DNA from: Chloroflexota bacterium
GTDB taxonomy: Bacteria; Chloroflexota; Anaerolineae; Aggregatilineales; Phototrophicaceae
Assembly: GCA_016223085.1 (NCBI GenBank)
Contig: JACRPS010000003.1
Span: 926,274-990,273, forward strand
Reading direction: 5' to 3'
Length of the DNA stretch: 64,000 bases
The position numbers were made by a program, and so were the translations under genes. Numbering within the stretch: position 1 is the first letter of the stretch; the number at the start of each line of letters is the position of its first letter. The notes beneath the pieces are model-generated. The model was given only the letters and a program-made list of their open reading frames with translations, searched no databases and was not told the origin of the DNA. Of this stretch, positions 5,449 through 33,070 are shown piece by piece.

Positions 5449-5521
5449 TAAGGTGGCATTCAGACAGACGACCGCGCCGCGTTGGGAGCGTGTCAGAAAT
5501 CGCGCGTGGAGGGAAACAGGT

Positions 5522-5902
5522 ATGCCACGGATTCTGTATATCGAAGACAATCGGGATAACCGGATACTGGTTCGCCGCATCCTCATGGCGTCCGATTACG
5601 ACTTTCAACTGGATGAAGCGGAAAGCGCGCTGGAAGGCATTAACAAGGCACGCCAGAATCCGCCTGACCTCATCCTGATGGACATCAGTATGCCGGAGAT
5701 GGACGGCCTGACGGCCACCGGGCGCATCCGCCGGATGCCCGAACTACAGAATACCGTCATTGTCGCGCTGACAGCCAATGCGATGAACGGGGACAAGGAA
5801 CGTACCCTGGAGGCTGGCTGCGACGGTTATATCCGCAAGCCGGTTGATGTGGACAAATTGCCCGATGAAATTCTGTATTATCTGAGGAGCCGCCACCAAT
5901 GA
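5522..5902 (+). CDS. Single-domain response regulator (CheY-like)
   Basis: The protein is one receiver domain of 126 residues with no output domain. The acidic pair is Glu8-Asp9, the phospho-acceptor is Asp54 (ILMDISMPEMDG), and the switch residues are Thr84 and Lys106 (RKPVD). The start at 5522 is chosen because GGAGGG lies 8 bases upstream; an in-frame ATG at 5453 lacks such a site. It overlaps the next regulator by the sequence ATGA, so the two are translationally coupled. It probably shuttles phosphate between kinases of this cluster. Confidence 0.9.
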   Translation: MPRILYIEDNRDNRILVRRILMASDYDFQLDEAESALEGINKARQNPPDLILMDISMPEMDGLTATGRIRRMPELQNTVIVALTANAMNGDKERTLEAGCDGYIRKPVDVDKLPDEILYYLRSRHQ

Positions 5903-6339
5903 GTGAGGCGCAAAACCAGACGACTCGCGTCCCGGTGGAACCGGGTGAAGCGCACGTACTCGTGGTTGAGGACAACGTGCCCAATTTTGTATTGATCGCC
6001 CGCATGTTGGCCTTTATGGGCGTGCAGCGCTGCGAATGGAAAACCTCCGGCTGGCAGGTCGTGCAGTTTGCTGATACCCTGCCCCGCGTAGACCTGATTT
6101 TGATGGACATCCGGCTGCCGTATGAAGATGGTTACCAGGCCCTGCAAAAAGTCCGCGCTCACCCTCGCCTGCGGGATACCATCGTTTGCGCCGTGACAGC
6201 GGAAGCCAGCGAAGACCAGATGCGCCGGGCGAAAAAAGCCGGCTTTAACGGTTTCCTGGGCAAACCACTGGACGCCGACCGCTTCCCCAACCAGATTCGA
6301 CGGCTGCTGTCCGGCGAAGAAGTCTGGGAATGGAAGTGA
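5899..6339 (+). CDS. Single-domain response regulator
   Basis: A 146-residue protein with one receiver domain (about 18-142) behind a short flexible N terminus. Acceptor Asp70 lies in LILMDIRLPYEDG, Thr100 and Lys122 (GKPLD) are in place. The domain carries a short extra loop (residues 44-56, WKTSGW region) between the first helix and the third strand. It begins inside the previous gene's stop codon (ATGA). Lack of an output domain suggests a phosphorelay intermediate or a protein-interaction switch. Confidence 0.9.
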   Translation: MSEAQNQTTRVPVEPGEAHVLVVEDNVPNFVLIARMLAFMGVQRCEWKTSGWQVVQFADTLPRVDLILMDIRLPYEDGYQALQKVRAHPRLRDTIVCAVTAEASEDQMRRAKKAGFNGFLGKPLDADRFPNQIRRLLSGEEVWEWK

Positions 6340-8686: not shown

Positions 8687-8699
8687 CGGAGGTAAGGCG

Positions 8700-10403
8700 A
8701 TGCAAAAAATCCTATCCAGCCTGTTTGACACCACCCGCTATACCAGCCTGCTCGACCGCGAGCGTGCCGCCATCGTCTACACCCTCAGCGGCGTAACGTT
8801 TATTCTGGTGACACTGTTTGCCGTCCTCAACCGGAATGATGCCAACCAGACCATTATCGAGCAGGCGGGGACCAACCCCAATGCCCTGATTTCCGCCGTC
8901 ATCGGCTACGTCGCCAGCATCGCCGCGTGGTGGCTGGTGCGCCGCAAACGCTTATCGCTCGCCAGCCTGGTCATGCTGCTGACGATTGCCACGACAATGG
9001 CTGTGCCCGCCATCAGTGAGGCGATGTACTCACCCACCTACGGCTTTGGTATCAGCCTGATTGTGGTGCTGGGCGTGCTGCTGCTCCAGTATCGCGGGCT
9101 GGCCCTCGGTCTGGGGCTGGCGCTGGGGATTACTGCGCTGGGCATCGCTAACCGGGCACAGGTGCCGCCGCCAGCGCGCATGAACGATATGACCAGCATG
9201 ATAAACGCCTCGGTGGTGCTGCTGGGTATCGCGGCCATCGGCTATCTGCTGCTGCGTTATGCCCGCATCAGCCGGACGGAGGGCGCCAAAACCATTTCGG
9301 CAGAACGGCTGCGGCTGGCGGAACTGACCTCGCAGATCGCACAGCGTATTTCCCGCCGGATGCCGCTGCCGGAGGTGTTAAACAACGCTGTTGAGCAAAT
9401 CCGCACCGAGTTCCCGCAAATCTACCACGCCCAGATTTTCCTGATTGACGACAGCAAACAGAATGCGCGGCTGGTCGCCAGTACCGGCGAAGTCGGGCGG
9501 CTGTTGATCGAACGGCAGCACAGTCTGCCAGTCGGCAGCCTGAGTGTGATCGGCCAGGTGACGGCCAACCGCAGGAGCATCGTCGCCCGCGCCGGTTCGT
9601 CCGACGGCGTGCATCGCCGCAACGAGTTTTTGCCGGAGACCGCCGTTGAAGCGGCCTTCCCGCTGCGCATTGGCGCTGCCATTATCGGCGCGCTGGACCT
9701 GCAAAGCAAACAGCCGGACACCTTCCACGACGAGGACATCCCGGTTTTCCAGTCGCTGGCCGACCATATCGCCATCGCCATTGATAACGCCCGGCTGTTT
9801 GACGAAACCGAGCGCCGCCTCGAAGAAAACCGGCAGTTGGCGGAACAGACGCAGAAAGCCGCGCGCGAAGTTGAACGGCTGAACCAGCAGTTGACGCGCC
9901 GCCTGTGGGATGATTTTCTGGCACAAACCGGCGGCGTGAAAGCGGTCACGGTGGATTTCGATACCCGCAGCACCAGCCGCGAGAACGAGTGGACGCTGGC
10001 GCTGGTGGAAGCCGTCGAGGCCAACCAGCCGGTGCAGCACCAGCAGGACAACGTCCGCATCATCGCCGTGCCGCTGCGTGTGCGCGGGCAGGTCGTCGGC
10101 GCGATGGAATTTGAACTCGATGCTTCCGGCCATCTATCGCCGGAAGACCTGAGCCTGATACAACAGGTGGGCGAACGGCTGGGCGTGGCCGCCGAAACCA
10201 CCCGACTGTTTGAGGCCAGCACCAGTGCCGCCCAGCGCGAGGCGCTGGTGAACGAAATTGCGGCGCGACTGCAGGCCAGCAACACGGTTGAAACGACGCT
10301 CACCGCCGCTGCCCGCAGCCTGAAGGACAGCATCAAGGCGTCGCGGGTGGCGATTCGTCTGGGCACGCCGCCGAACCAAGTGTTACAGGATAACGGCTCA
10401 TGA
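8700..10403 (+). CDS. Six-TM membrane GAF protein without catalytic output
   Basis: The 567-residue protein starts at 8700, where GGAGG lies 8 bases upstream; an in-frame ATG at 8622 falls inside the previous gene. Six hydrophobic segments (about 25-44, 62-82, 86-106, 113-131, 133-151, 167-187) form a membrane sensor. A GAF domain follows (222-367) with the signature ASTGEVGRLLIERQHSLPVG, then a coiled coil (368-400), a shorter GAF-like module (402-505) and the truncated-GAF tail (510-557). No enzymatic domain is present, so it probably signals by contact with the neighbouring kinase. Confidence 0.85.
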   Translation: MQKILSSLFDTTRYTSLLDRERAAIVYTLSGVTFILVTLFAVLNRNDANQTIIEQAGTNPNALISAVIGYVASIAAWWLVRRKRLSLASLVMLLTIATTMAVPAISEAMYSPTYGFGISLIVVLGVLLLQYRGLALGLGLALGITALGIANRAQVPPPARMNDMTSMINASVVLLGIAAIGYLLLRYARISRTEGAKTISAERLRLAELTSQIAQRISRRMPLPEVLNNAVEQIRTEFPQIYHAQIFLIDDSKQNARLVASTGEVGRLLIERQHSLPVGSLSVIGQVTANRRSIVARAGSSDGVHRRNEFLPETAVEAAFPLRIGAAIIGALDLQSKQPDTFHDEDIPVFQSLADHIAIAIDNARLFDETERRLEENRQLAEQTQKAAREVERLNQQLTRRLWDDFLAQTGGVKAVTVDFDTRSTSRENEWTLALVEAVEANQPVQHQQDNVRIIAVPLRVRGQVVGAMEFELDASGHLSPEDLSLIQQVGERLGVAAETTRLFEASTSAAQREALVNEIAARLQASNTVETTLTAAARSLKDSIKASRVAIRLGTPPNQVLQDNGS

Positions 10404-12016
10404 GCGCGCAACCGTTTTATTTACCCTATGTGACACCCCGCACCGATACGCTGTTCCGGCTGCGCCAGCGTTTTATCCAGGCGTTGGGCGTAATCGGCGT
10501 AGTGCTGGGATTCATCGGTATCGCCTTGCAGCTTGCCTGGGGTACACCGTTCTGGGCACAACTGATTACCGGCCTGTTCACGCTCACCAGCTTCAGTCTG
10601 GTCTGGCTGGCGCGGCGCGGGCGCATCGCGGAAGCGTCAATCGTCCTGATTGTCCTGTTCGCAGTTGGCACGCTCTCCAGTCCGGCAGGCGCCATGCCGC
10701 TGGCAGTTATCACCCTCATCGCCGCCGCCGTGCTGGGCAGCCGGGCTGTCTTCTTTGTAACAACCGGGGTGATGCTCGGTCGGGAATTTCTACACTTCGC
10801 TACACTGCTGTCACAGTCGTCCGGCACGATGACTCCTGACGCTACCGACGGCATTACCCGCCTTACCACGCTGCTGCTCATCACTTTCACCACCCGCTAT
10901 TTCATCAACCAGACTGAACGTGCCGCCGCCAGCGCCCGCCGCAGCACCGATCTGCTGCAGGCAGCGGCGGAAATCGGGCAGCAGCTCGGCAAGCTGCTTG
11001 ATCTGGACGAGTTGCTCAACCGCGCGGTTGAACTCATCCGCGACCGGCTGGCGTTTTACCACGTCCAGGTATTCCTGGTAGACGACAACGGTGAAACGGC
11101 GCTGCTGGCAGCCAGCACCGGCGAGGTCGGTCAGCAGTTGCTGGAACGCCGGCATCACCTGCCGATTGGCTCGCAGAGCGTGATCGGCCAGGTGACGCTG
11201 CTGGGCCGCCCGGTGCTGGCGCGGGACACCGACGAGGTGTATTACCGCAACGAACTGCTGCCAGACACCCGCGCCGAACTGGCCGTTCCCATCCTCGACG
11301 GCGACCGGATTATCGGTGCGCTGGACGTGCAGAGCCGCAACGTGGACGCCTTCGACGCGGACCGGGTGCAGGCGCTTCAGGTGATGGCGAACCTGCTGGG
11401 CACATCGGTGCGGAACGCACGGCTGTTTGCGCTGCAAACCCGCAGCGCCGAGGAAACCAAACGCCTGTATCTGGAAACGGAAGCCAACCTGCGCGAAATT
11501 CAGCGGCTGAACCAGCAGCTAACCCGCGCCGGCTGGGAAGAATATCTGCGCCAGCGGCAGACCGCCGGTGGCGTCACGCTGGAAGATGGCCGGCTGGTAC
11601 ACGAGACGGACTGGTCAGACAGCCTCATCCGCGCCACCCACAGCCGCCAGCCGGTGACGGTAGTCCACGAGGACGGCAGTTCGACAGTCGCGCTGCCGGT
11701 GGTGCTCGGTGGTGAAGTCATCGGCGCGCTGGAAGTGGAAGCCGACCGCCCCGTGACCCAGACCGAAACCATCGAAATGATGCGGGCGGTGGCGCAGCGG
11801 CTGGCGATCAGCCTGGACAAAGCGCGGCTGTTTGAAGAATCACAGGAGGCCACCGCGCAGGAGCAGCGCATCAACGACATTGTGGCGCGGTTCCAGTCCG
11901 TGACCAATGTTGACGACCTGCTCAGTATCACGCTGACTGAACTCAGCCAATCGTTAGGGGCCACTGGCGGCGCTATCCGCCTGAGTCTGGCACCCCAGGG
12001 AGAAGCGGCCTCATGA
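10400..12016 (+). CDS. Multi-TM membrane GAF protein without catalytic output
   Basis: It overlaps the preceding stop codon by ATGA. The 538 residues hold five or six membrane segments (between about 25 and 170), a GAF domain (202-344, ASTGEVGQQLLERRHHLPIG), a coiled coil, a short GAF-like module (379-480) and the shared tail (487-530). It is a clear paralogue of the gene before it, which points to tandem duplication with divergence of the membrane part. No output domain is present. Confidence 0.85.
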   Translation: MSAQPFYLPYVTPRTDTLFRLRQRFIQALGVIGVVLGFIGIALQLAWGTPFWAQLITGLFTLTSFSLVWLARRGRIAEASIVLIVLFAVGTLSSPAGAMPLAVITLIAAAVLGSRAVFFVTTGVMLGREFLHFATLLSQSSGTMTPDATDGITRLTTLLLITFTTRYFINQTERAAASARRSTDLLQAAAEIGQQLGKLLDLDELLNRAVELIRDRLAFYHVQVFLVDDNGETALLAASTGEVGQQLLERRHHLPIGSQSVIGQVTLLGRPVLARDTDEVYYRNELLPDTRAELAVPILDGDRIIGALDVQSRNVDAFDADRVQALQVMANLLGTSVRNARLFALQTRSAEETKRLYLETEANLREIQRLNQQLTRAGWEEYLRQRQTAGGVTLEDGRLVHETDWSDSLIRATHSRQPVTVVHEDGSSTVALPVVLGGEVIGALEVEADRPVTQTETIEMMRAVAQRLAISLDKARLFEESQEATAQEQRINDIVARFQSVTNVDDLLSITLTELSQSLGATGGAIRLSLAPQGEAAS

Positions 12017-13710
12017 GAAGGTTAAACCGCGCGTGGCGGTGGCTTGTCCGCGTCCAGCACCCGTACCTCAGCCCAATCGAGCGCCACCGCGCCGGCGTCC
12101 TGCTGCTGCTCAACGGCGTGATCGCGCTGGCGGCGCTGCTGTGGGCGCTGCTTGGTGTGGTCAGCGGCGCTTTCCAGCCGGTTGCCGCGCCGGTCATCAC
12201 GGTCATCGCCAGCGTCCTCGTCCACATCAACATCCAGCGCGGCAAACTCGCCCGCGCCGTATCCCTGTTTGTGGCGCTGCTGCTGGTGAATACGCTGCTG
12301 GTGACGGTGTTTGCGAACTTCGACCAGCTCACCGTCAGCGGCACAGCCATCATCATCCTGATGATCCCGATTGTGGCCGCCGGCGTGCTGCTCAACCGGC
12401 AGGGTATCCTGATTATCGCCCTGGTGATCGTGGCGGCGCTGGCGCTTGGCGCCATCAGTCAGAGCGCGAATGACACCCCGACACAGTTTATTCCGTCACA
12501 GGTTGTTGGCTTCGATCTGGTCAGCGTCGGCGTGACGGTCGCCATCACCACCGGCTTTCTGCTGGTCTTTTCCAACGCCGCCAACCGCATTACCCAGACC
12601 TCGCTTATGGAACTGCGGCAGCGCCAGTGGGTCGCGGAATATGCCATTGACATCGGGCAGGAGCCGCTGGCCGTCAGCGTGGTGCTGGCGCGGGCGCTGA
12701 CCCTGCTGCACGGCAGGTTCGGTTACAGCTTCGTGCAGATTTATCGCTACGACGACGATCAGAACCTGCTCGTCCGCACAATGAGCAGCGGCCTGGGGCA
12801 GAGCGAAGCGGCAGACCGGGGCGGTTACGGCCTGAACGAAATGAATGCCATCAGCGAATGCGCCCGCACGCGGCAGCCGGTCGCGGTGGTCGGCGGCGCG
12901 CCCGGCAGCGCCCACCTGCGCCCGGCTATGCGCTATGGGCTGGCCATGCCGGTGCTGCATCAGGGGCGGCTGCTGGCCGTACTGGACATCCAGCGCACTG
13001 ACGATACACCGCTGCCGCCAACGCAGGTCGAAACGCTGACACTGCTGGCCGGGCACATCGGCGTGGGCATGACCAACGCCGTCACGGCAGGCGACATGCA
13101 GCGCCACCTCGACGAGCAGGTCGCCGAAAACACCCGGCTGCAAAAGCAACTGGCAGAGTTCCACAACCGCGAGCAGCGCCGTGTTAGCCGGGCGTGGAGC
13201 AGCTATTTGCAGGGTCGTGGCAAAACGGCCATCGGTTATGACATCCAGCCAGGGCAGGACATTGTGCCCATCGCCGCCCACAACCTGCCGGAAGACCTGC
13301 GCCGCACGCTGGAACAGGGATCGCTGCACGTGGAAACGCGCGGCGACGAAAAGATCATCCACGTGCCGATTACCTTCCGCAACCAGACCTTTGGCGCGAT
13401 GGCATTCCGTATCCCTGCCAGTCAGGAACTGACCAACCGCCAGATCGAAATGGCGCAGGTCGTGGCCGAACGGCTGGCAATCGCGCTGGAAAACATGCGT
13501 CTGTTTGAGCAAAGCCAGGCGCAGGCCCTGCGCGAACGCAAGGCCGGGCAGATCACGGAGCAGCTCATCGGGACGAAAGACGTGGACGCGCTGCTGAATC
13601 TGGCGGCAGAGAGTTTTAACGACGTGCTGGGGGCTGTCCATACCCGCATTTACGTCCAGCCGGACCTGCTGGCCGAACCCCCATTGTCGAGAGAGGAAGC
13701 CACCCGATAA
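12013..13710 (+). CDS. Six-TM membrane GAF protein, divergent paralogue
   Basis: This 565-residue protein again overlaps its predecessor by ATGA. Six hydrophobic segments (about 28-50, 57-73, 79-100, 109-127, 131-150, 166-188) precede a GAF domain (214-355) that lacks the ASTGEVG motif of its neighbours and reads TMSSGLGQSE instead. A coiled coil, a short GAF-like module (392-498) and the shared tail (505-548) follow. The changed GAF pocket suggests a different ligand or loss of binding. Confidence 0.85.
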   Translation: MRRLNRAWRWLVRVQHPYLSPIERHRAGVLLLLNGVIALAALLWALLGVVSGAFQPVAAPVITVIASVLVHINIQRGKLARAVSLFVALLLVNTLLVTVFANFDQLTVSGTAIIILMIPIVAAGVLLNRQGILIIALVIVAALALGAISQSANDTPTQFIPSQVVGFDLVSVGVTVAITTGFLLVFSNAANRITQTSLMELRQRQWVAEYAIDIGQEPLAVSVVLARALTLLHGRFGYSFVQIYRYDDDQNLLVRTMSSGLGQSEAADRGGYGLNEMNAISECARTRQPVAVVGGAPGSAHLRPAMRYGLAMPVLHQGRLLAVLDIQRTDDTPLPPTQVETLTLLAGHIGVGMTNAVTAGDMQRHLDEQVAENTRLQKQLAEFHNREQRRVSRAWSSYLQGRGKTAIGYDIQPGQDIVPIAAHNLPEDLRRTLEQGSLHVETRGDEKIIHVPITFRNQTFGAMAFRIPASQELTNRQIEMAQVVAERLAIALENMRLFEQSQAQALRERKAGQITEQLIGTKDVDALLNLAAESFNDVLGAVHTRIYVQPDLLAEPPLSREEATR

Positions 13711-15925
13711 TGGCACGTTTGCCGTTTTTAAACCTCCTCTCCTGGCCGCTGTGGCTGAAGCTGACGGTGGGCTTCACGCTGGCGATTGTGCTGCCGGCGC
13801 TGCTGATTACCGCCATCAGCCAGAGCGGCTTTAACCAGATCAACACCGAACATATCCGGCTGTACGTGTCGGAAAACGGCGCGCATCAGCAGGAAGCCAT
13901 CAGCACGGCGCTGAACCAGGCAGCGGCGCTGCTGGACGAATTTGTGAACGACGAAGCCCATCAGCAGCAGATTGACCTGGCGCTGGATGAAGAAATTGAT
14001 GGTATCCGCAGCCGCATCGTCGCCAACCGCTTCCGCAGCAACCTGTTTAACAGCGGCCTCTTTACGCTGGTGCGCCTGCTGAATGCGGAAGGCCGGATTA
14101 TTGCGGCCTCTAATGCATTGGAAACGCTGCCCCCCGGCACCAGCAACGCCGAGTCGCTGGCTTACGTGCAGGCCAAGGAGGCGTTCGCCAACGGCATCAG
14201 CTTCCTGACCAGCGTCCAGGCCAGCGGCGTGCTGGAGATTACTCACGTCATCAGCCGCAGCGGCGTGCCGGTTGGCTACCTCATCGGCAGGATAGACACG
14301 GAAGGTGTCATCCTCGAACCTTTGCGATTAAGCGGCAACGTTTATAATGCCTACAGCTACCTCATGACCGGCGGTAGTCAGCCGACCATTTTTAGTCTCC
14401 GAGAAACCCGGCAGCTTGCCCTGCAGGCGTCGGTTGATTCGCAGGCGGTCGCGCGGGCGCTGGCCGGCACGACCAAAACCGACACGTACCGTCTGGGCGG
14501 TGGACAGGCGCACACGGTCATCGGTTTCTACGGTCCGATTCCCGACCCCACCCGCCCCGGTACGCCGCTGTTCGCGCTGGTGGTGGAAGCCAACGCCGTG
14601 CCATACTTTGTTGAGTCGCTGGCGCAGTTCAGCGGGCCGCGCGCCTTTACCGTGATCGTCGGGGCAATGGCAGTGCTGGTTATCATGGTGCTGCTGTTCC
14701 ACCAGTTTATCGCGCCGCCGCTCCACCAGCTACGGGTAGCCGTGCAGGGCATGAGCCGGGGTGAATTTAGCCTGCCGGTGGAAACACGCGGGCGGAAAGA
14801 TGAGATCGGCCAGCTCTCCAGTTCCTTTGTTGAGATGCGCGACCAGATACAGACGCTGCTGCAGGACCTGGAAAGCCGTATCGCCGCCCGTTCCCGCGAC
14901 CTGACGGCCATGCACGAGGTCAGCCGTTTTGCCGTCACCCAGCGCAACCTGCAAACCCTGCTGGACGAAGTGGTGAACCTGATCGTCACCCACTTCCCCA
15001 GCATTTACCACGCGCAAATCTTCCTGCTGGACACCGACGAGACCTACGCCGTGTTACGCGCCAGTACCGGCGAGGTGGGCCGGACGCTGCTCCAGCGCGG
15101 CCACCGGCTGGCGGTCGGCAGCCTGAGCGTGATCGGCCAGGTGACGCAGCAGGGTGAAGTGGTGGTCGCCCGCGATACCACCTCCAGCCAGGTACACCGC
15201 CACAACGAATTTTTGCCCTACACCCGCGCCGAACTCGCTATTCCGCTTAAGGTCGGCGACCGCGTGATCGGCGCGCTGGACGTGCAGAGCAAGCAGCGCA
15301 ACGCCTTCACCCAGGACGAAATTGGCGTGCTGCAAACGATGGCCGACCAGTTGGCCGTCGCCATCGAAAACGCGCGGCTGTATCAGGACTCGATGCGGCG
15401 CATGGCCGAAATTGACCGCGCCAACCGCGAAGCGACGCGAACGACCTGGCAGGAGTATATTTACTCGCAGCGGCGGCGGTCGCTCAGCAGCGAAGCCGGC
15501 ATCCCCACCGGCACCGACGTATCGGCGCTGCGGCAGCAGGCCGTGCGCGAGGGCCGTATCGTGGTCGGCGAGGTGGGCAGCAACGGCACGATTCCGATTG
15601 CCGTGCCGATTCAGCTTTCCGGCCAGACGCTGGGCGCGGTGGAATGGGAACTGCCCGCCGAGCAGCTCGACGACAACAAACTCCAGCTTGCGCAGGAACT
15701 CGCCAACCGTCTGGCGATCAGCCTGGACAACGCCCGTCTGTTTGAAGAAAGCCAGCGCGCCGCCGAACGCGAACGCATTGTGAATACCATCGCCGCCCGG
15801 CTGACGCCGCAGACCGAGATCAACGAGATTTTACAAACGGCGGTGCGCGAAGTCGGCCAGGCGCTACGCGCGCCCCAGGTCAGCATCCGCTTAAGTCACA
15901 CCAACGGTAAACACGAGCAGAAGTA

Positions 15926-15926
<1 letters not shown>
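13710..15926 (+). CDS. Cache-like/HAMP/GAF membrane sensor without catalytic output
   Basis: It starts in a TAATG overlap with the previous stop. One membrane segment (15-37), an extracytoplasmic sensor region of about 270 residues (40-310, resembling a double-Cache fold), a second membrane segment (313-334) and a HAMP domain (335-387, with PPLHQLRVAVQGMSRGEFSLPV) build the front half. A GAF domain (414-558), a short GAF-like module (580-687) and the truncated-GAF tail (694-728) follow. The front half resembles a chemoreceptor or kinase, but neither output domain is present. It may report external signals to the giant kinase encoded next. Confidence 0.87.
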
Positions 15927-24142
<8,216 letters not shown>

Positions 24143-24148
24143 TTTTCA

Positions 24149-25828
24149 TTGAACTCCATACCACCAGAACGACAACGGGTGGGGTTGGAATGCACCAACT
24201 GCCACACGCAAATTCCGCTTGACCGCTCGCTGGCCGGCTGCCCGGCCTGTGGCGAAACGCTGCTGGAAGCGATCTATGATTTTGACCAGATGGATATTCC
24301 CGCCTGGGTCGAGCGCGTCAAACAGCGTCGCCCGAACCTGTGGCGCTACCGCGAAGTGCTGCCGATTCACCACGCGGCCAACATCGTCAGCCTGGGCGAA
24401 GGTGGTACGCCGCTGCTTAAGTCGCAGGCGCTGGCGGCCAGCCTGGGGCTGAAGCACCTGTACATCAAGGACGAGCGCCAGGGGCCAACCGGTAGCTTCA
24501 AGGACCGGCAGGCCACCGTCGCCATCTCCGCGCTGAAGGAAATGGGCGTGGATGAACTGGTAGTTGCCAGCACCGGCAATGTCGCCATCGCCTACGCCGC
24601 TTACTGCGCCCGCGCCGGCATCAAGCTGTGGGCGTTTTTCCCCAGCCTGACTCCCGGCGACAAAATGCGCGAGGCGGCGCTGTACGGCGCGGAAGTGATT
24701 AAGATCACCGGCACGTATGACCAGACCAAGGAACTGGCGGCGCGTTTCGCCCAGACCAAAGGTATCTTCCTTGACCGGGGCATCAAGAGCGTGGCGGCCA
24801 TCGAAGCGATGAAGACGATGGCCTACGAGATCGCCGAAGACCTGGGCACGGAACTGGCCGGCGGCGAACGCTGGCTGGCGCCGGACTGGTTCCTGCAAGG
24901 GGTCAGCGGCGGCATGGGGCCGATTGGCGTGAGCAAGGGCTTCCGCGAGCTGGTCAGCTTCGGGCTGGTGGACAAACTGCCGAAGCTGGGCCTGATCCAG
25001 TCGGCGGGCTGCGCGCCGATGGTGGAAGCCTACCAGCGCGGGCAGCGCATCGCCACGCCGATTGACAACCCGCAGACGATCATCGCCACGCTGGCGACCG
25101 GCAATCCCGGACGCGCTTACGAAATCCTGTACGAGTACGTCAATACCCACGGCGGCCATTTTACCACCGCCACCGACGAGGACGCCTTCACCGCCACGCT
25201 GATACTGGCGCGCACCGACGGCATTTCGGTTGAACCAGCCACCGCCGTTACTTTCGCCGGCCTCATTCGGATGGTGCGGGAACGGGTCATTAAGCCGGAT
25301 GATGTGGTGGTGGTGAACTGCTCCGGCCATACCATGACGGTTGAAAAACACATCCTGGGCGACCAGTGGCAGCACTCGGTTGATCTGTCAGGGCAGGCGA
25401 AAACGCCGGCATTGCCGGAAGAAGGGCTGCTGTCCGCGCTGGAACAGGTTGAGTCGCAGGTGCGGCGCATCGTCATCATTGAGGACAATGTGGACGCGGC
25501 GCGGCTGATTCAGCGCATTTTGCAGGCGCGTGGCAGTTACGATATCCGCCTGGCGCACGACGGCGCGACCGGCATCAAGATCATCCGCGAGGTGATGCCG
25601 GATATGGTTGTCACCGACCTGATGATGCCTGACGTGGACGGTTTTGCCGTGATTGACACGATGAAAGCCGACAAAACGATGGCGCGGATTCCGATTGTGG
25701 TGGTGACAGCCAAGGACCTGACACCCAAAGAGAAGGCGCGCCTGAACGGGCAGATTGACATGCTGCTGCAAAAAGGCTCGTTCATTGATGAGCAGTTTAT
25801 CGAAAGTCTCGTCAGCAAGCTGCCGTGA
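24149..25828 (+). CDS. Threonine-synthase-like PLP enzyme fused to a receiver domain
   Basis: Residues 1-410 form a fold-type II PLP enzyme: a zinc ribbon (Cys15, Cys18, Cys31, Cys34), GEGGTPL at 83-89, PLP-binding Lys118 (GPTGSFKDRQ), ASTGN at 140-144, and a C-terminal CSGHT. Canonical threonine synthases read STGNTSA at the phosphate loop; here it is STGNVAI, so the substrate may differ. Residues 438-559 form a complete receiver: acidic Glu445-Asp446, acceptor Asp490 (VVTDLMMPDVDG), Thr520 and Lys542. Translation starts at TTG 24149, with GGAGAG 9 bases upstream inside the giant kinase gene, 6 bases after its stop. The fusion implies that phosphorylation controls the enzyme, or that the enzyme body is an output module. 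Fusion is seen directly; regulation is inference. Confidence 0.93.
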   Translation: MNSIPPERQRVGLECTNCHTQIPLDRSLAGCPACGETLLEAIYDFDQMDIPAWVERVKQRRPNLWRYREVLPIHHAANIVSLGEGGTPLLKSQALAASLGLKHLYIKDERQGPTGSFKDRQATVAISALKEMGVDELVVASTGNVAIAYAAYCARAGIKLWAFFPSLTPGDKMREAALYGAEVIKITGTYDQTKELAARFAQTKGIFLDRGIKSVAAIEAMKTMAYEIAEDLGTELAGGERWLAPDWFLQGVSGGMGPIGVSKGFRELVSFGLVDKLPKLGLIQSAGCAPMVEAYQRGQRIATPIDNPQTIIATLATGNPGRAYEILYEYVNTHGGHFTTATDEDAFTATLILARTDGISVEPATAVTFAGLIRMVRERVIKPDDVVVVNCSGHTMTVEKHILGDQWQHSVDLSGQAKTPALPEEGLLSALEQVESQVRRIVIIEDNVDAARLIQRILQARGSYDIRLAHDGATGIKIIREVMPDMVVTDLMMPDVDGFAVIDTMKADKTMARIPIVVVTAKDLTPKEKARLNGQIDMLLQKGSFIDEQFIESLVSKLP

Positions 25829-25852
25829 GCGTCATTTCCACAAACAGGTTTG

Positions 25853-25878
25853 TCGGGGCGCAGCAAGCCGCGCCCCGA
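25853..25878. repeat. Imperfect GC-rich inverted repeat
   Basis: Arms TCGGGGCG and CGCCCCGA flank a short loop after the PLP-receiver gene. It resembles the 28-base family in shape but has TCGGGG rather than GTAGGG ends. It may end the long transcript. Confidence 0.45.
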
Positions 25879-25930
25879 ACATGTCCATTCTACAAAACCA
25901 TCATGTTTTAGCAGGTCTTTGTCTTTGAAC

Positions 25931-25945: not shown

Positions 25946-26033
25946 AAAACATTACATTTGACCTGACTTTTCGTCGGCGGGCCGGGTTATGATACAATCA
26001 GCCGCCCGACAATGTTTGACAGTGGGTTCACGG

Positions 26034-27296
26034 ATGCACACCTCCCCACAGACCATCCTGTATATTGAGGACGACCCCGCCAGCCGGTCGCTTGTCTCGC
26101 GCACGCTGACTCACGCCGGCTACCGCGTGCTGGTGGCCGAACGCGGGTTAGAGGGCATTGACATCGCCCGGCGGGAACGGCCTGATTTAATTCTGACCGA
26201 CATCAATCTGCCTGATCTCAGCGGGCGCGAAGTGACCACCAAACTCCGCAGCGAACCGCAGTTCCAGACCACGCCGATTGTCGCGCTGACGGCGCAGTCG
26301 TTGCACGAGTTCCGTGACATGGCGCTGGCTGCCGGTATCACCGGCTACCTGACCAAACCGATTGACGTGGAAACCCTGCCGCAGCGGGTTGAATATTATC
26401 TGCGCGGTGGCCGCGATACGATTGAGCAGGAAAAGCTGACCGAGGCGCAGGTGCGCTACGCGCAGGAAGTGGTGGGCCGGCTGGAAGACCAGATACGCGA
26501 ACTCGAATCGGCCAACAGCGCCCTGCGCCGCCTGGACAAGATGAAGGATACGTTTATCCAGCTTACGGCGCACGAACTGCGCACGCCGCTGACGCTGGTG
26601 TTTGGTTACAGCCGCCTGATCGAAGACGCCGCGCCAATCAGGGCACTGGTGAACAGCGACCCCAACCTGCAAGTGCTGATGAAAGGCTTGCAGGACTCGA
26701 TCAAACGGATGCAGGACATCATCAACGAAATCCTGACCATCAGCCGCATTATGACCAACCAGATTGATCTGTCCATCGCGCCGGTGCATCCGGGACTGGT
26801 GGCGGAACGGGTGGTAAATAACCTTCTGCCGGCGCTGCAAACACGCCGGGTGACGCTCCATTTTGACCGCTCGACCTGGCCGGAACTGATGCGCGGTGAC
26901 GCCGACCTGCTGGCGCTGGCGCTGGCGAACCTGCTGAACAACGCCATCAAATACACACCCGACGGCGGCCACGTCTACCTGACGGCCAGTGCCGACGACC
27001 AGGTTATCCGCTTCAGCGTGAAGGACACCGGCATCGGCATCGCCCCGGAAGAACAGGAACGTATCTTCGAGCGTTTCCATACTGCCGGCGATACAACCTT
27101 GCACTCCACCAGCAAGGTGGCTTTTCTCGGCGGCGGGCTAGGGCTGGGGCTGGCGATCTGCAAGGGGATTATCGAAGCGCACGGCGGACGCATCTGGGTG
27201 GAGAGCGACGGCTATGACCCGGAGCGGCTGCCGGGCAGTGAATTCCTGGTCGAACTGCCGGTAGACAGCACGCGCCACCCGGCAGGGAAAAGCTAA
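26034..27296 (+). CDS. Receiver-histidine kinase (REC-HisKA-HATPase)
   Basis: Residues 1-125 are a receiver with acceptor Asp56 (LILTDINLPDLSG) and Lys108 (TKPID). A coiled coil (about 130-168) leads to HisKA with His180 (LTAHELRTPLTLVFGYS) and a HATPase with NLLNNAIKYTP. No sensor or membrane segment exists, so input comes through phosphorylation of the receiver. The start at 26034 is preferred because the receiver begins there; an in-frame ATG at 25989 overlaps a TATGAT/TACAAT promoter-like stretch. It could extend the relay of the preceding cluster. Confidence 0.9.
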   Translation: MHTSPQTILYIEDDPASRSLVSRTLTHAGYRVLVAERGLEGIDIARRERPDLILTDINLPDLSGREVTTKLRSEPQFQTTPIVALTAQSLHEFRDMALAAGITGYLTKPIDVETLPQRVEYYLRGGRDTIEQEKLTEAQVRYAQEVVGRLEDQIRELESANSALRRLDKMKDTFIQLTAHELRTPLTLVFGYSRLIEDAAPIRALVNSDPNLQVLMKGLQDSIKRMQDIINEILTISRIMTNQIDLSIAPVHPGLVAERVVNNLLPALQTRRVTLHFDRSTWPELMRGDADLLALALANLLNNAIKYTPDGGHVYLTASADDQVIRFSVKDTGIGIAPEEQERIFERFHTAGDTTLHSTSKVAFLGGGLGLGLAICKGIIEAHGGRIWVESDGYDPERLPGSEFLVELPVDSTRHPAGKS

Positions 27297-27302
27297 CCGG
27301 CT

Positions 27303-28415
27303 ATGCGTTCCAACGCGCGCGGCATCCTGGCCGCCTTCCTCACACCGCTGTTCCTGGGCGCAGCGCCCATTTTCGGCAAACTCGCTATCAACGCCGGGGC
27401 GGACTCGTTTACCGTAGCTGCCTGGCGCACGGTCGTCGCGGTTGCCTTCCTGTGGGCGGTGTATCTGCTGTTTTACCGCCGGTTTATCTACATCTATCCG
27501 GCGGGTCTGCTCGGCTGCGTGGTCATTGGCACGGTCAACGGCATTGGTTCGCTGTTTTATTACGGCGGCCTGGGGCTGCTGGACGCTTCGCTCAGCCAGC
27601 TTCTGAACGGCATGTACCTGATCTTCGTGGTGCTGCTGTCCCGCATGGGCGGCGAACGGCTGGACCGGCGCTTATGGCTGCGGGTGACGCTGGCGTTCGC
27701 CGCGCTGATTATCCTGACCGGCTTTGGCGACAAGCCGGTGAACTGGCTCGGCGTGGGCCTGATGCTGGCAAACGCGCTCATGTTTGCCGGGACGGTCATC
27801 CTCAGCCAGTATGTGCTGTACGAAATGCCCGCGCCGACGGTGGCGCTCTATACCCTGACGACGATGGCTGTGCTGGTGACAATGGTCTGGGTGGCGGTCG
27901 GCAGGCCGATGACCGCCGCCGTGATGCAGGCCGCGCTGCCGCCGATTGTCATTCTGGGGCTGACGACAGCACTCTCGCGCCTGTCACTGTTCGCCGGCGT
28001 GAAGTTTTTTGGCAGCCTGCAAACGGCGATTCTGGCCCTGACGGAAATCGGCGTGGCGCTGGCGCTGGCGTTCCTGGTGCTGGGCGACCGGCTGACACCA
28101 GCACAGATGCTCGGTGTGGGCATCCTGTTTATCAGCATCCTGATGATTCGCCCGCGCGACATCCTGCCACACGGCGTCAACCCGACGCTGCTGGTATCCA
28201 ACTTCGCCGATTTGCAGTTTATGTGGATCGCGTTCGATCAGGCGTTTGGCAAACGTCCGCCGGAGGATGGCGTCAGCGTGGACGCCACCCCAACCGCGCC
28301 CAAGCTGACCAGTGCCGAGATCGTCGCTATCCGCGAGATGATGGGCGCACAGAAAGGGCCGGTCAACCCGATACCGCTGCCAAAGGAAAAACCGAAACGA
28401 GTTGAACCGGATTAG
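27303..28415 (+). CDS. EamA/DMT-family membrane transporter
   Basis: About ten hydrophobic segments in two EamA repeats span residues 8-290; the second repeat ends with a strongly hydrophobic pair typical of the family (ALALAFLVLGDRLTPAQMLGVG). A soluble tail of about 75 residues follows, charged and rich in lysine at the end, which is longer than usual. The gene starts 7 bases after the kinase stop codon and is probably in its operon. DMT proteins export amino acids, nucleosides or drugs; the substrate is not evident. Confidence 0.88.
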   Translation: MRSNARGILAAFLTPLFLGAAPIFGKLAINAGADSFTVAAWRTVVAVAFLWAVYLLFYRRFIYIYPAGLLGCVVIGTVNGIGSLFYYGGLGLLDASLSQLLNGMYLIFVVLLSRMGGERLDRRLWLRVTLAFAALIILTGFGDKPVNWLGVGLMLANALMFAGTVILSQYVLYEMPAPTVALYTLTTMAVLVTMVWVAVGRPMTAAVMQAALPPIVILGLTTALSRLSLFAGVKFFGSLQTAILALTEIGVALALAFLVLGDRLTPAQMLGVGILFISILMIRPRDILPHGVNPTLLVSNFADLQFMWIAFDQAFGKRPPEDGVSVDATPTAPKLTSAEIVAIREMMGAQKGPVNPIPLPKEKPKRVEPD

Positions 28416-29662: not shown

Positions 29663-30760
29663 GTGACGGCCCGGACTTTGCAGTTTGTCTGTTCGCGCTG
29701 TGGACAGGACGCCGGTCCGCTGGACTGGCAGTGCGCCGCGTGCGGCGGACCGATTCACATCGTCAATCTGCCGGATTTCAGCGAGGCAGCCATCCGTGTC
29801 AACGAGTGGTCGCTGTGGCGCTACGCCGATATGCTGCCCGCCGAACGGCAGGTATCGCTGGGCGAGGGGGCGACACCGTTGGTGCCGGTCAGACTGCCGG
29901 GCGGGTTGATCTGGGCCAAGCTGGAATATCTGAATCCGACCGGTTCGTACAAAGACCGGGGCACGGCGCTGCTGGTCAATCATCTGCTGGCGCATCGTGT
30001 CGGCAGCGTGGTGGAAGATTCGTCAGGCAATGCCGGGGCATCGCTGGCGGCCTACGCCGGCGCCAGCGGCATCCGCGCCCGCGTTTATGTCCCCAGCAGC
30101 GCGCCGGAAGGTAAAAAGCGGCTGATCGCACTCAACGCCGAACTGGTGGAGGTGGATGGTCCGCGTTCCGCGCCGACGGCTGCCTGCCACGAAGCGGCGC
30201 GCGCGGCGGTGTATGCCAGTCATGCCTGGAGTCCGCTGTTCCTGGCCGGGCAGATGACCTGCGCCTGGGAAATCTGGGAGCAGATGGGACACCGCACGCC
30301 GGATGCCATCGTCTGCCCGGTGGGGCACGGCGGGCTGTTTCTGGGACTGGCGCGGGGTTTTAAGGCGCTGCGCGACGCCGGGCTGGTCGAACGCCTGCCG
30401 CGCCTGTACGCGGTGCAGTCGGCAGCCTGCGACCCAATCGTACGCGCCTGGGAAGACAATCTGGACGAACCCGAACCCGCGCCGGAAAATCCGACGGTCG
30501 CGGACGGGATTGTGGTCAACCAGCCGGTGCATGGGCGCGAGGTTCTGGCGGCCATCCGTGACAGCGGCGGTCTGGCGCTGCGCGTGAGCGATGCGGCGAT
30601 CCTGGACGCGCAAACGGTGCTGGTCAAGCGTGGCCTGCTGGTAGAGCCAACCAGCGCGGCACCCATCGTGGCGCTGAGTACCGTGCAAACACATGTCGGC
30701 TCCGGCGCGGCCATCGTCGTCCCGCTGACCGGCAGCGGCCTCAAAACTCTGACACATTAA
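29663..30760 (+). CDS. Threonine-synthase-like PLP enzyme
   Basis: A 365-residue fold-type II PLP enzyme with an N-terminal zinc ribbon (Cys10, Cys13, Cys24, Cys27), GEGATPLV, the PLP lysine in NPTGSYKDRG, and SSGNAGASLAAY as phosphate loop. It is related to the enzyme half of the 24149 gene but has no receiver domain and differs in the loop. Translation starts at GTG 29663 behind GGAGGA. True threonine synthase, or a related lyase or racemase-type enzyme, cannot be told apart from sequence alone. It runs opposite to moaA. Confidence 0.85.
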   Translation: MTARTLQFVCSRCGQDAGPLDWQCAACGGPIHIVNLPDFSEAAIRVNEWSLWRYADMLPAERQVSLGEGATPLVPVRLPGGLIWAKLEYLNPTGSYKDRGTALLVNHLLAHRVGSVVEDSSGNAGASLAAYAGASGIRARVYVPSSAPEGKKRLIALNAELVEVDGPRSAPTAACHEAARAAVYASHAWSPLFLAGQMTCAWEIWEQMGHRTPDAIVCPVGHGGLFLGLARGFKALRDAGLVERLPRLYAVQSAACDPIVRAWEDNLDEPEPAPENPTVADGIVVNQPVHGREVLAAIRDSGGLALRVSDAAILDAQTVLVKRGLLVEPTSAAPIVALSTVQTHVGSGAAIVVPLTGSGLKTLTH

Positions 30761-30763
30761 GCG

Positions 30764-33070
30764 ATGGGAAAAGTTAACACAGAGGCACAGAGGCACGGAG
30801 GCACGGAGAAAAAATCTCTGAGTCTCTGGGTCTTGGTGTCTCTGTGTTGGGTTTTTCTCTTTTATCTTCTTGTCGCGGTGATTGTCACCTGGCCGCTGGT
30901 GACGGTGTTTTCGACGCGCTTCATCGGCCACCCGTTCAGCGACAGCTACGAGTACGCCCGCTTTGTCTGGTGGTTCAAATACGCGCTGCAAACCGGCCAG
31001 TCGCCGTATTTCCAGCCCTGGCTGGCCTACCCTGACGGCCTCACGTCGTGGCTGCTGTGGAGCATTCCGCTGCAATCGTTCCCGGCGTGGCTGTTCGCGT
31101 TGGTACTGCCGCTGCCTGCCGCTATGAACCTGGCGGTGCTGCTGCGGCTGGCACTTAACGGCTGGGCCATGTACCTGCTGGTGCGGCGGCTGACCGGGCA
31201 AGCCGCGCCGGCGCTGTTGTCCGGCGTGATCTTCCTGGCGTATCCGTCGTTTCAGGGGCAGTTGGCCGCCGGCCATACCGGGCTGCTGGCGCTGTGGCCG
31301 GTGGTTCTGTATGTCTATAGTCTTCAGTCGTCAGTCGTCAGTCTTCAGTCTTCAGTTACCAGTCGCCAGTTGCCAGTTGCCAGCAATCCGTTGTCAGAAA
31401 ACACAACTTGGAACTCGGAACTCGGAACTTCTTCAGCAGTCAGCAGTCAGCAGTCAGCAGTCAGCAGTTCAGAAGCCTCAGCACTCAGTACTCAGCACTC
31501 AACACTTTCAACTCCGAACTCGGAACTCGGAACTCGGAACTTTCTACTCAGCACTCAGTACTCAGTACTCAGTACTTCCCTGTTCTTCGTCCTGAGCCTG
31601 CTGGGCAGCAATCAACTTCTTGTGTACCTGCTGCTGCCGGTGACGGCGGTGTTCGCGCTGCGGCTGGTCATCCGGCGTGACTGGCGGGCGCTGCGGCGGC
31701 TGATCGCGGCGGTTGCCCTCGGCGGCGCGGTTTCGCTCATCTTCATCGCGCCCGGCTTTATCGAAGCGCTCAATGCCCCGCCTTGGCTGCGCGAACGCGG
31801 CGACGTGACTTTCAGCGCCGACCTGCTCAGCCTCGTGACGCCCTCGTTCCAGCATCCCTTATTCGGCAGGCTGGATTACACCCACACCGTCCTGGGGATA
31901 GACCCGTTTGAGAAGCCGGGCTACGTCGGCATCGTCGCCGGGCTGCTGGCGTTGGTCGGCGTGTGGCGGCGGAGCGCGGCGCGCTGGTGGCTGCTGGTTG
32001 CCGCCATCGGCTGGTCGCTGTCGCTTGGCCCGCTGTTGCACGTCCTCGGCCAGCCGGTGACGACCTTAGCTGACGGTTATGCCTCGTTTGTGCCGCTGCC
32101 CTGGGCGCTGTACCAGCAGTTGCCGCTGTTGAACATTGTGCGCGTCCCGGCGCGGTTTCACTTCGCCGTCGCGCTGGCGCTGGCGGTCATGGCGGGGTAC
32201 GGAGTTGCCAGTTGCCAGTTGCCAGTTGCCAGAAAGAAGTTCTCAGTTGTCAGTTCTCAGTTCCCAGTTTTAAAAACTCGGAACTTCTCACTCAGCACTC
32301 AGTACTCAGTACTCAGTACTCTCCTGCTGGCCGCCGTCGTTTTGTGGGAATACCAACTTTTCTGGACGGGGATGCCCACCATTCCCGCCGACATTCCGGC
32401 AGCAGTGGCGGAACTGGCGGAGCGAAACGACGTGCGCGCTGTGTTCGACGTGCCGTATGACCATTTACTGGCGGCCAAAGAAGGGTTATATCTACAGACA
32501 GCGCACCACAAGCCGCTGATTGCCGGGCAGGTGACGCGGCGGACGCCGGTCAACCCGGCCAAACTGGCATTGCTGCAAACCATGCTTGACCCGGCGCTGC
32601 TGGATACGGCGGGCGTGGATGTCATCATCCTGCATAAGGAGTGGGACGAGGGCAAAATCGAGCCGCACCTGCGCGAACAGCTGGGCGACCCGTTTTACGA
32701 GGACGAACATTTCGCGCTGTTTGATGCGCCGGACAGCAGCGCCGCGCCCGGTTTTGTCGCCACGACTGCGCCAGATACGGCGATCAGCGACCGCGCCGAC
32801 TCCTATTTTTATCTGCCGGAACCAGGAACGGTGACGCTGCGGGCAGAACTGGCAGGCGAAAACCGTACTGTCGCCTTACTGCTGGATGGTGTAGTCGTGG
32901 AACGCTGGACGATCAGCGGCGAGCAGGCTATTGAAACGACGCTGGATGCCGCCCGTGCTGGCTACCACACCGTGACGCTGGCGCTCGAACCGCCCTGCCC
33001 GGCCAGCCCGCACCCGGCGCTGCGCTGCCGCACGGTACAGCTTGCCGCAGTCTCGCTTACGCCTCGTTGA
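30764..33070 (+). CDS. Polytopic membrane protein (YfhO/PTPS-related type) with heptamer-repeat insertions
   Basis: The 768-residue protein has many hydrophobic segments, an early aromatic loop (PFSDSYEYARFVWWFKYAL) as in GT39/YfhO-like proteins, and a soluble beta-rich C terminus (about 560-768). Residues 186-272 and 480-521 are encoded by heptamer repeats and are low-complexity Ser/Gln/Val-rich (STQYSVLST, NSELGTRN). They interrupt membrane segments, yet the frame stays open. The first 28 residues lie inside another inverted repeat, so the true start is uncertain. A role in glycan or lipid-linked sugar transfer is possible but unproven. The stop overlaps the convergent next gene by 14 bases. 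Confidence 0.75.
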   Translation: MGKVNTEAQRHGGTEKKSLSLWVLVSLCWVFLFYLLVAVIVTWPLVTVFSTRFIGHPFSDSYEYARFVWWFKYALQTGQSPYFQPWLAYPDGLTSWLLWSIPLQSFPAWLFALVLPLPAAMNLAVLLRLALNGWAMYLLVRRLTGQAAPALLSGVIFLAYPSFQGQLAAGHTGLLALWPVVLYVYSLQSSVVSLQSSVTSRQLPVASNPLSENTTWNSELGTSSAVSSQQSAVSSSEASALSTQHSTLSTPNSELGTRNFLLSTQYSVLSTSLFFVLSLLGSNQLLVYLLLPVTAVFALRLVIRRDWRALRRLIAAVALGGAVSLIFIAPGFIEALNAPPWLRERGDVTFSADLLSLVTPSFQHPLFGRLDYTHTVLGIDPFEKPGYVGIVAGLLALVGVWRRSAARWWLLVAAIGWSLSLGPLLHVLGQPVTTLADGYASFVPLPWALYQQLPLLNIVRVPARFHFAVALALAVMAGYGVASCQLPVARKKFSVVSSQFPVLKTRNFSLSTQYSVLSTLLLAAVVLWEYQLFWTGMPTIPADIPAAVAELAERNDVRAVFDVPYDHLLAAKEGLYLQTAHHKPLIAGQVTRRTPVNPAKLALLQTMLDPALLDTAGVDVIILHKEWDEGKIEPHLREQLGDPFYEDEHFALFDAPDSSAAPGFVATTAPDTAISDRADSYFYLPEPGTVTLRAELAGENRTVALLLDGVVVERWTISGEQAIETTLDAARAGYHTVTLALEPPCPASPHPALRCRTVQLAAVSLTPR
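30776..30848. repeat. Imperfect inverted repeat over the start of a membrane-protein gene
   Basis: The left part repeats GAGGCAC-type heptamers (AACACAGAGGCACAGAGG begins it) and the right part ends in CTCTGTGTT, the complement of its beginning. It starts 12 bases inside the reading frame and supplies most of its first 28 codons. Confidence 0.6.
31319..31579. repeat. Heptamer repeat array inside an ORF (array 1)
   Basis: About 260 bases consist of successive blocks of 7-base repeats: AGTCTTC/AGTCGTC, AGTTGCC, GAACTCG, CAGCAGT, ACTCAGT and GAACTCG again. Units in a block are nearly identical and blocks change motif. The array sits within the 30764-33070 frame without a stop. Confidence 0.8.
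32203..32326. repeat. Heptamer repeat array inside an ORF (array 2)
   Basis: Four exact AGTTGCC units (32203-32230) are followed by AGTTCTC-type units and four ACTCAGT-type units. The motifs are the same set as in array 1, in the same frame-preserving manner. Confidence 0.8.

Follow-up and report, generated by a model that had tools for sequence, protein, structure and literature searches.

The closest described relatives of the protein analyzed here are threonine synthases (ThrC), for which solved structures come from Thermus thermophilus (1uim/1v7c), Aquifex (2zsj), and Arabidopsis (2c2b). The protein is a pyridoxal-phosphate (PLP) enzyme joined to a response-regulator receiver, encoded in a 64,000-nucleotide stretch of Chloroflexota DNA (the whole stretch analyzed, hereafter the window). 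It shares with threonine synthases the fold-type II core, the PLP lysine within SFKDR and the STGN loop (VIA Z 38.9–47.2, 25–34% identity), whereas both of its phosphate loops (substrate and PLP) are replaced, a glutamine follows SFKDR, a receiver is fused to the enzyme, and the neighboring genes encode kinases. PRK08197, the long zinc-ribbon “threonine synthase,” is the best NCBIfam match of the fusion protein and resembles it in zinc ribbon and length, but the score of 283.7 bits is below the cut-off of 303, PRK08197 has no receiver, and two typical members fall outside the fusion group in our tree. Cysteate synthase (TIGR03844; 9k3c, Z 40.7) is likewise a threonine-synthase relative with another substrate; however, the fusion scores 127.2 bits against a cut-off of 324.9, and the TIGR03844 model covers no receiver.

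Other systems resemble the locus in its combination of parts. The CqsA and LqsA synthases have another PLP fold and no receiver, unlike the fusion. Their quorum systems, CqsA/CqsS and LqsA/LqsS, are similar to it in bringing together a PLP-dependent enzyme and a sensor kinase, as described in passages of PMC10653808. According to parts of PMC5847659, receivers joined to metabolic enzymes are a general trend with archaeal examples, and such enzyme-output response regulators share with our protein the receiver–enzyme union and a narrow taxonomic range; the enzymes named in section 14 of that source are not PLP enzymes, whereas the fusion contains one and is accompanied by kinases and often a permease. 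An initial annotation, made from the sequence, had stated that no standard enzyme of this kind is known to be fused to a receiver. For the exact pair the statement held, as no report of a PLP enzyme–receiver pair appeared among the matches listed in open-licence literature; for metabolic enzymes in general it did not, given those passages of PMC5847659. Receiver–enzyme fusions are, on the evidence of the same passages, already known.

A PLP enzyme and a receiver in one protein

The elements of the fusion gene are as follows, with residue numbers referring to the fusion protein.

24134–24137, forward strand: GGAG, which may be a ribosome-binding site and lies within the last bases of the kinase gene, read from the sequence
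24149–25828, forward strand: PLP enzyme–receiver fusion gene, an open frame of 559 aa with a TTG start
24191–24250, forward strand: zinc ribbon Cys15, Cys18, Cys31, Cys34, invariant in 124/124 family proteins
24386–25324, forward strand: PALP domain, residues 80–392, from Pfam, with a model matching threonine synthases
24488–24511, forward strand: PLP-lysine motif T114-G-S-F-K118-D-R-Q121, from alignment with true synthases
24773–24799, forward strand: residues 209–217 (DRGIKSVAA), replacing the NSVNP-R substrate-phosphate loop of threonine synthase, from alignment and family conservation
24905–24928, forward strand: residues 253–260 (SGGMGPIG), which we take to be the PLP-phosphate loop, from alignment
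25358–25459, forward strand: linker, residues 404–437, with a short conserved motif (consensus LPEEGLLSALEQ), mostly of low confidence in the structural model
25460–25816, forward strand: receiver domain, residues 438–556, from Pfam, structural model and conservation
25616–25618, forward strand: phosphoacceptor Asp490 of the receiver

The frame from 24149 to 25828 runs uninterrupted through a zinc ribbon, a fold-type II PLP domain and a receiver, as the initial annotation had read it; Lys118, Asp490, Thr520, and Lys542 fall where it had placed them, the four cysteines form a zinc-ribbon pattern, and the TTG start indeed lies six bases past the stop codon of the upstream kinase (24140–24142). 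Pfam recognizes PALP at residues 80–392 (234.2 bits; cut-off 35) and Response_reg at residues 441–542 (58.6 bits; cut-off 30.2). The AlphaFold model (mean pLDDT 82.6, pTM 0.69) is laid out as a zinc-ribbon plus PLP unit extending to about residue 394, followed by a receiver at about 438–556, with low confidence at 395–403 and 406–436. The solved structures nearest to it are threonine synthases, led by 2c2b (Z 47.2, rmsd 2.2 over 391 residues) and including 2d1f (Z 41.0) and 1v7c (Z 40.7).

The family set was formed from every frame of 500–760 residues in the collected loci that had a PLP match as well as a receiver match. It comprises 124 distinct continuous proteins, counting that of the window, with which the others share 46% identity or more. 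Partial genes (e.g., L104, L109, L112, and L114) and genes longer than 760 aa were left out. Within this set, whose choice by receiver match may favor intact receivers, Ser116, Phe117, Lys118, Asp119, Arg120, Gln121, Ser141-Thr-Gly-Asn144, Lys172, Ser253-Gly-Gly255, Gly257-Pro258, Cys15/18/31/34, Asp446, and Asp490 are invariant (124/124), position 520 holds Thr (101 proteins) or Ser (23), and Lys542 is present in 123, the remaining protein having a gap. The family carries both the residue set of a response-regulator receiver (acidic Asp446, phosphoacceptor Asp490, Thr/Ser520, and, in all but one protein, Lys542) and the fold-type II PLP core with catalytic lysine that is found in threonine synthases.

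Comparison with seven same-genus relatives gave dN/dS values of 0.035–0.20 across the PLP part, linker, and receiver in 20 of 21 comparisons; the other, a receiver comparison (L042), had reached saturation, as its partner segments nearly had. Values for the linker ranged from 0.035 to 0.16. Each of these segments is under purifying selection.

A stop or frameshift between residues 410 and 438 would have spoken against a true fusion. There was no internal stop in any listed fused match of the close-relative, class or phylum samples, whereas the 124 family proteins, having been preselected as continuous frames, are uninformative on this point. Continuity was broken in one gene split between frames (L219) and in the one-receiver gene of G010, where an N run intervenes (L225). 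The only point in favor of a chance or assembly fusion of two adjoining genes is that both strands here contain long open frames. Against it stand the junction itself, which is the same in 124 distinct proteins drawn from many genomes and rules it out, and the low dN/dS of the linker; we give that explanation practically no weight, and the PLP enzyme–receiver fusion is real.

Candidate receiver-less members were not upheld. The partial matches in G162, G250, G196, and G080 (class sample) sit at contig ends, and the G188 gene (L219:1043–2700) is spread over three frames, through sequencing error or decay, with the receiver part still present. A 1784-aa frame in G154 (L168) suggested a kinase–PLP single chain, but the kinase is in another frame and the long frame is due to chance; a 1157-aa frame in G096 likewise resembled a kinase–PLP fusion and, exceeding 760 aa, lies outside the 124.

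Fused genes occur in 56 of 61 close-relative genomes (E < 1e-150; the window's own included), within one order of Chloroflexota, and no fused match at this threshold was found in G017, G027, G032, G034, and G055. A match at 1e-90 was present in 62 of 199 genomes of the evenly sampled class set, and one at 1e-75 in 34 of 301 genomes of the phylum sample, seven of which, G260 plus six members of family f80, do not belong to the class; the three samples overlap. Named fusion loci belong mostly to Anaerolineae, Aggregatilineales, and other Chloroflexota MAGs. In a broader contig scan with short peptide patterns, covering the best 80 of 355 relatives (78 loci), the last among the matches listed was an unfused Moorella gene (34%). 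No match of at least 60% identity was found in 784 plasmid records, and of the two plasmid matches covering at least 80% of the query, one (Aminobacter, H2) is an unfused 415-aa gene. Two records labelled Bacteroidetes (L049) and Pleurocapsa minor (L069) carry a Chloroflexota fusion gene; contigs of equal length occur in G009 and G031, of the window's genus and family, and the two records are probably misbinned or mislabelled.

The gene in the window is of a one-receiver type, and its genome also holds a second fusion gene, of 707 residues with two receivers (L117:6618–8741). All 83 fusion representatives in a PLP-domain tree lie on one side of a single branch (support 100/100), separate from the true synthases and from two typical PRK08197 members; their placement among the synthases is weak, with long branches, and we use the separateness alone. 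The two-receiver proteins form one weakly resolved group of 10 that includes a one-receiver member (L118). The conservation of the family is consistent with one origin and, together with its presence in 56/61 sampled relatives, argues that the arrangement is no passing accident.

Substrate pocket of the enzyme domain

In threonine synthase of Thermus thermophilus, N154, S155, and R160 bind the substrate phosphate. The equivalent positions in the fusion family are 210, 211, and 217, and these do not retain the residues that hold the phosphate of O-phosphohomoserine. Residue 210 is Arg in 84 proteins, Lys in 20, Met in 12, and Gln, Leu, or Pro in two each (two of the 124 are not listed); residue 211 is Gly in 124/124; and residue 217 is Ala in 96, Ser in 15, Gly in nine, Cys in two, and Val and Pro in one each, never Arg. 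Residue 213 is Lys or Arg in 118/124. The fusion family thus reads D209-R/K/M210-G211-x-K/R213, with few exceptions, and has an SGG-GP-G loop, whereas the true synthases aligned, among them the genome's own ThrC, have NSVNP-R before EGQKT and a GN-type (GNxGN) PLP-phosphate loop. Gln121 after SFKDR is also fixed in the family, where the aligned true synthases have Gly. The basic residues at 210 and 213 would leave room for another anionic amino acid.

STGNVAI had been taken for the phosphate loop; by alignment, this stretch is the Asn loop and residues 253–260 (SGGMGPIG) are the PLP-phosphate loop. The accompanying doubt that O-phosphohomoserine is the substrate is nevertheless borne out, on the stronger ground of residues 209–217.

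A true-looking ThrC is encoded elsewhere in the window's genome (L185:1282–2583, reverse strand), beside a homoserine-kinase-like gene (named by eye), and 50 of the 61 relatives contain a match to it at E ≤ 1e-100. Because the substrate-phosphate loop is replaced and this separate gene exists, the fusion protein is probably not a threonine synthase. If it were a regulated one, placing ordinary threonine supply under kinase control, threonine synthases would be expected as its closest solved relatives, as they are. Its curated scores are divided, with TIGR00260 (threonine synthase) exceeding the cut-off by 1.3 bits (168.4 against 167.1) and PRK08197 falling short. The missing NSVNP-R loop, the shortfall against PRK08197, a two-receiver paralogue that is below both the TIGR00260 and the PRK08197 cut-offs, and the separate ThrC with its matches in 50 relatives make that explanation very improbable.

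Unfused relatives also occur close to fusion genes. In the window, a second zinc-ribbon threonine-synthase-like PLP gene (29663–30760, 365 aa) lies unfused 3.8 kb downstream and is followed by a 768-aa frame without a Pfam match (30764–33070); unfused PLP genes are likewise near the fusion in L040, L041, L047, L079, and L120. In two genomes, the gene directly downstream of the fused one is a typical PRK08197 member that is itself unfused (L173:5803–7029 and L175:9958–11226; 566 and 580 bits), which gives a natural pair of enzymes for comparison.

Kinases and receivers around the fusion

In the window the fusion gene belongs to a run of sensory genes, of which the other recognized members are these.

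5453–5902 and 5899–6339, forward strand: a pair of stand-alone receiver proteins that open the run
6416–13710, forward strand: four GAF-domain proteins (756, 593, 538, and 565 aa), from Pfam
13710–15926, forward strand: HAMP-GAF protein upstream of the kinase, from Pfam
15926–24142, forward strand: hybrid histidine kinase of 2738 aa, the likely phosphodonor, with many GAF domains, HisKA, HATPase, and two receivers, and dCache below cut-off
25989–27296, forward strand: REC-histidine kinase (REC-HK) of 435 aa, a frequent next gene of the module
27303–28415, forward strand: EamA-family permease, frequent in the module of the one-receiver type

The fusion had been described as the last gene of its operon. 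It probably is not, as the REC-HK gene, which starts 160 bases past it, and the EamA permease gene continue on the same strand. A terminator scan found none between the fusion gene and REC-HK, but with four sites against 4.2 in shuffled sequence it was non-discriminating. By eye, a G+C-rich inverted repeat with no T run, absent from that scan, is visible in this interval (25852–25879). Before the sensory gene run, a gene on the reverse strand (2965–4290) encodes an FAD-dependent oxidoreductase with a weak tryptophan-halogenase match.

Of the 114 fusion loci with flanks of 1.2 kb or more on either side, 102 have a histidine kinase gene no more than 1 kb away on the same strand, compared with no kinase or receiver neighbor within 1 kb at any of 30 control loci for true ThrC in related genomes (the loci of the best 30 of 50 ThrC matches, with flanks of about 1.3–1.5 kb). 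Gene neighborhood is the ground on which these 102 kinases are regarded as cognate. The kinase is upstream in 98 of 121 loci with at least 1.2 kb of upstream sequence, with a median gap of 18 and, in 78 of them, a gap of 100 bases or fewer. That such proteins should always be next to multi-GAF kinases, as the initial annotation had put up for checking, was nearly borne out as far as kinases in general are concerned, with 12 loci as exceptions at the 1-kb limit; GAF domains are present in all eight partner kinases scanned with Pfam. The PLP lysine and the phosphoacceptor are kept in all 12 exceptions (one has the Lys542 gap), and for L177 and L092 (the latter the same contig as L128), at least, a kinase is one gene farther upstream. 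Among the eight scanned kinases, dCache is above cut-off in two (L125 and L165) and below it in three (the window, L127, and L130), L175 has a sub-threshold sCache only, and L117 and L171 gave no Cache match in Pfam. This variation suggests that the input depends on the lineage while the output is constant.

Other genes adjoin the kinase at a few loci. In two single-contig genomes, a ParA/MinD-type gene (L171:13785–14573, scanned with Pfam, and L172:13923–14711) shares 35 bases with the beginning of the kinase gene. An S-adenosyl methyltransferase (Methyltransf_19) is directly upstream of the kinase in L176 (13922–14743), and genes of similar appearance are found in L179 and L183.

Receivers were counted in the enzymes and in the genes around them. 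For the 91 one-receiver PLP proteins with an upstream kinase, that kinase has two receivers in 76 cases, one in seven, four in one, and none in seven, so that a kinase with receivers precedes 84 of the 91; the two-receiver PLP proteins with an upstream kinase follow a receiver-less one in 7/7. The nearest recognized gene within 400 bases downstream of 115 one-receiver members is REC-HK in 55, EamA in 24, a lone receiver in five, a kinase in two, and a GAF protein in one, with none recognized in 25 and three cut, and downstream of the two-receiver type it is a lone receiver in 8/9. A receiver tree was built from 68 receivers of 22 hand-picked loci; with few columns and a midpoint root, its groups are splits and not proven clades. 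One such group of 36 rows (97/89) unites the PLP receivers with the second receivers of two-receiver kinases (8/8) and of two-receiver PLP proteins (6/6), to the exclusion of both the first receivers of the kinases and the downstream ones; also outside it are those of a four-receiver kinase (L129) and the single receivers of two other kinases (L166 and L183). On the simplest reading, a terminal receiver would have spread by copying between the kinase and enzyme genes of the operon and may still answer the same kinase.

Possible output of the module

A true fusion, an intact receiver, an adjoining kinase, and strictly kept catalytic residues together favor an enzyme controlled by phosphorylation, and we hold it fairly probable that the fusion is a response regulator with a working PLP enzyme as its output. 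The kinase of the operon, through its GAF sensors and sometimes an extracellular Cache domain, would pass phosphate to Asp490; the phosphorylated receiver would then alter how the PLP domain works or assembles, and this would switch on or off a beta- or gamma-elimination or replacement on an amino acid other than O-phosphohomoserine. The EamA permease that often accompanies the one-receiver type may carry the product or the substrate across the membrane.

Against this reading, the linker is predicted to be mostly disordered, and no receiver–enzyme contact that would explain the switch is seen in the AlphaFold model. Because the linker nonetheless holds the conserved LPEEGLLSALEQ stretch, coupling may use dimerization or docking of this stretch, which is a guess. 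Also against the reading are the 12/114 loci with no kinase within 1 kb, the 38/86 loci with no EamA gene, and the receivers of the L129, L166, and L183 kinases, which group elsewhere than the PLP receivers. Response-regulator receivers usually have Lys-Pro where that of the fusion has Lys-Gly (542–543), so its signaling surface may be unusual.

A predicted disordered linker, the close tie to kinases and to the other receivers in the run, and the grouping of the PLP receiver with the terminal receiver of two-receiver kinases would also suit a PLP domain that acts as a sensor or brake of the phosphorelay, its amino acid binding or turnover reporting the metabolic state and its receiver serving as a phosphate sink or kinase docking site. 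We think this unlikely: the PLP-site residues checked are kept in 124/124, beyond what ligand binding should require, and the partnership with EamA suggests a flux of product or substrate.

An EamA gene is present on the same strand within 2.6 kb downstream in 48 of the 86 fusion loci with at least 3 kb of downstream sequence. Seven two-receiver loci among the 86 had none, and no EamA match longer than 200 aa was found farther out in the same 86, in searches that used two EamA proteins of the module as queries and would miss distant EamA families. Export of amino acids or related metabolites is a frequent role of EamA proteins. Their frequency here, and the above-threshold dCache of two and sub-threshold dCache of three of the eight scanned kinases, could be read as an autocrine loop, in which an amino-acid-like autoinducer would be made by the phosphorylated enzyme, leave the cell through EamA, and be read by a Cache domain of the operon kinase. 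We know of no autoinducer for this module. A Cache sensor is not general, as the L171 and L117 kinases show no Cache match and that of L175 has sub-threshold sCache only, and both kinases with an above-cut-off Cache (L125 and L165) have no adjoining EamA gene; a secreted signal accordingly seems rather doubtful. Equally doubtful is the proposal of a new class of Chloroflexota signaling module, in which a kinase-switched PLP synthase has its product, an amino-acid-like small molecule, exported by its own permease and read by the extracellular Cache domains of partner kinases. Were it true, signal synthesis, and not gene expression alone, would be under direct phosphorylation control.

Near-closed genomes with the fusion (G349 in three contigs, G086 and G351 in one contig each) suggest that there are cultured hosts, which, if so, would make tests practical. 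Genes annotated as threonine synthase in this group of Chloroflexota may include signaling enzymes with another substrate. With a response regulator whose output is a PLP enzyme, a kinase setting that enzyme's activity directly, without transcription, would join environmental sensing to amino-acid chemistry in one step.
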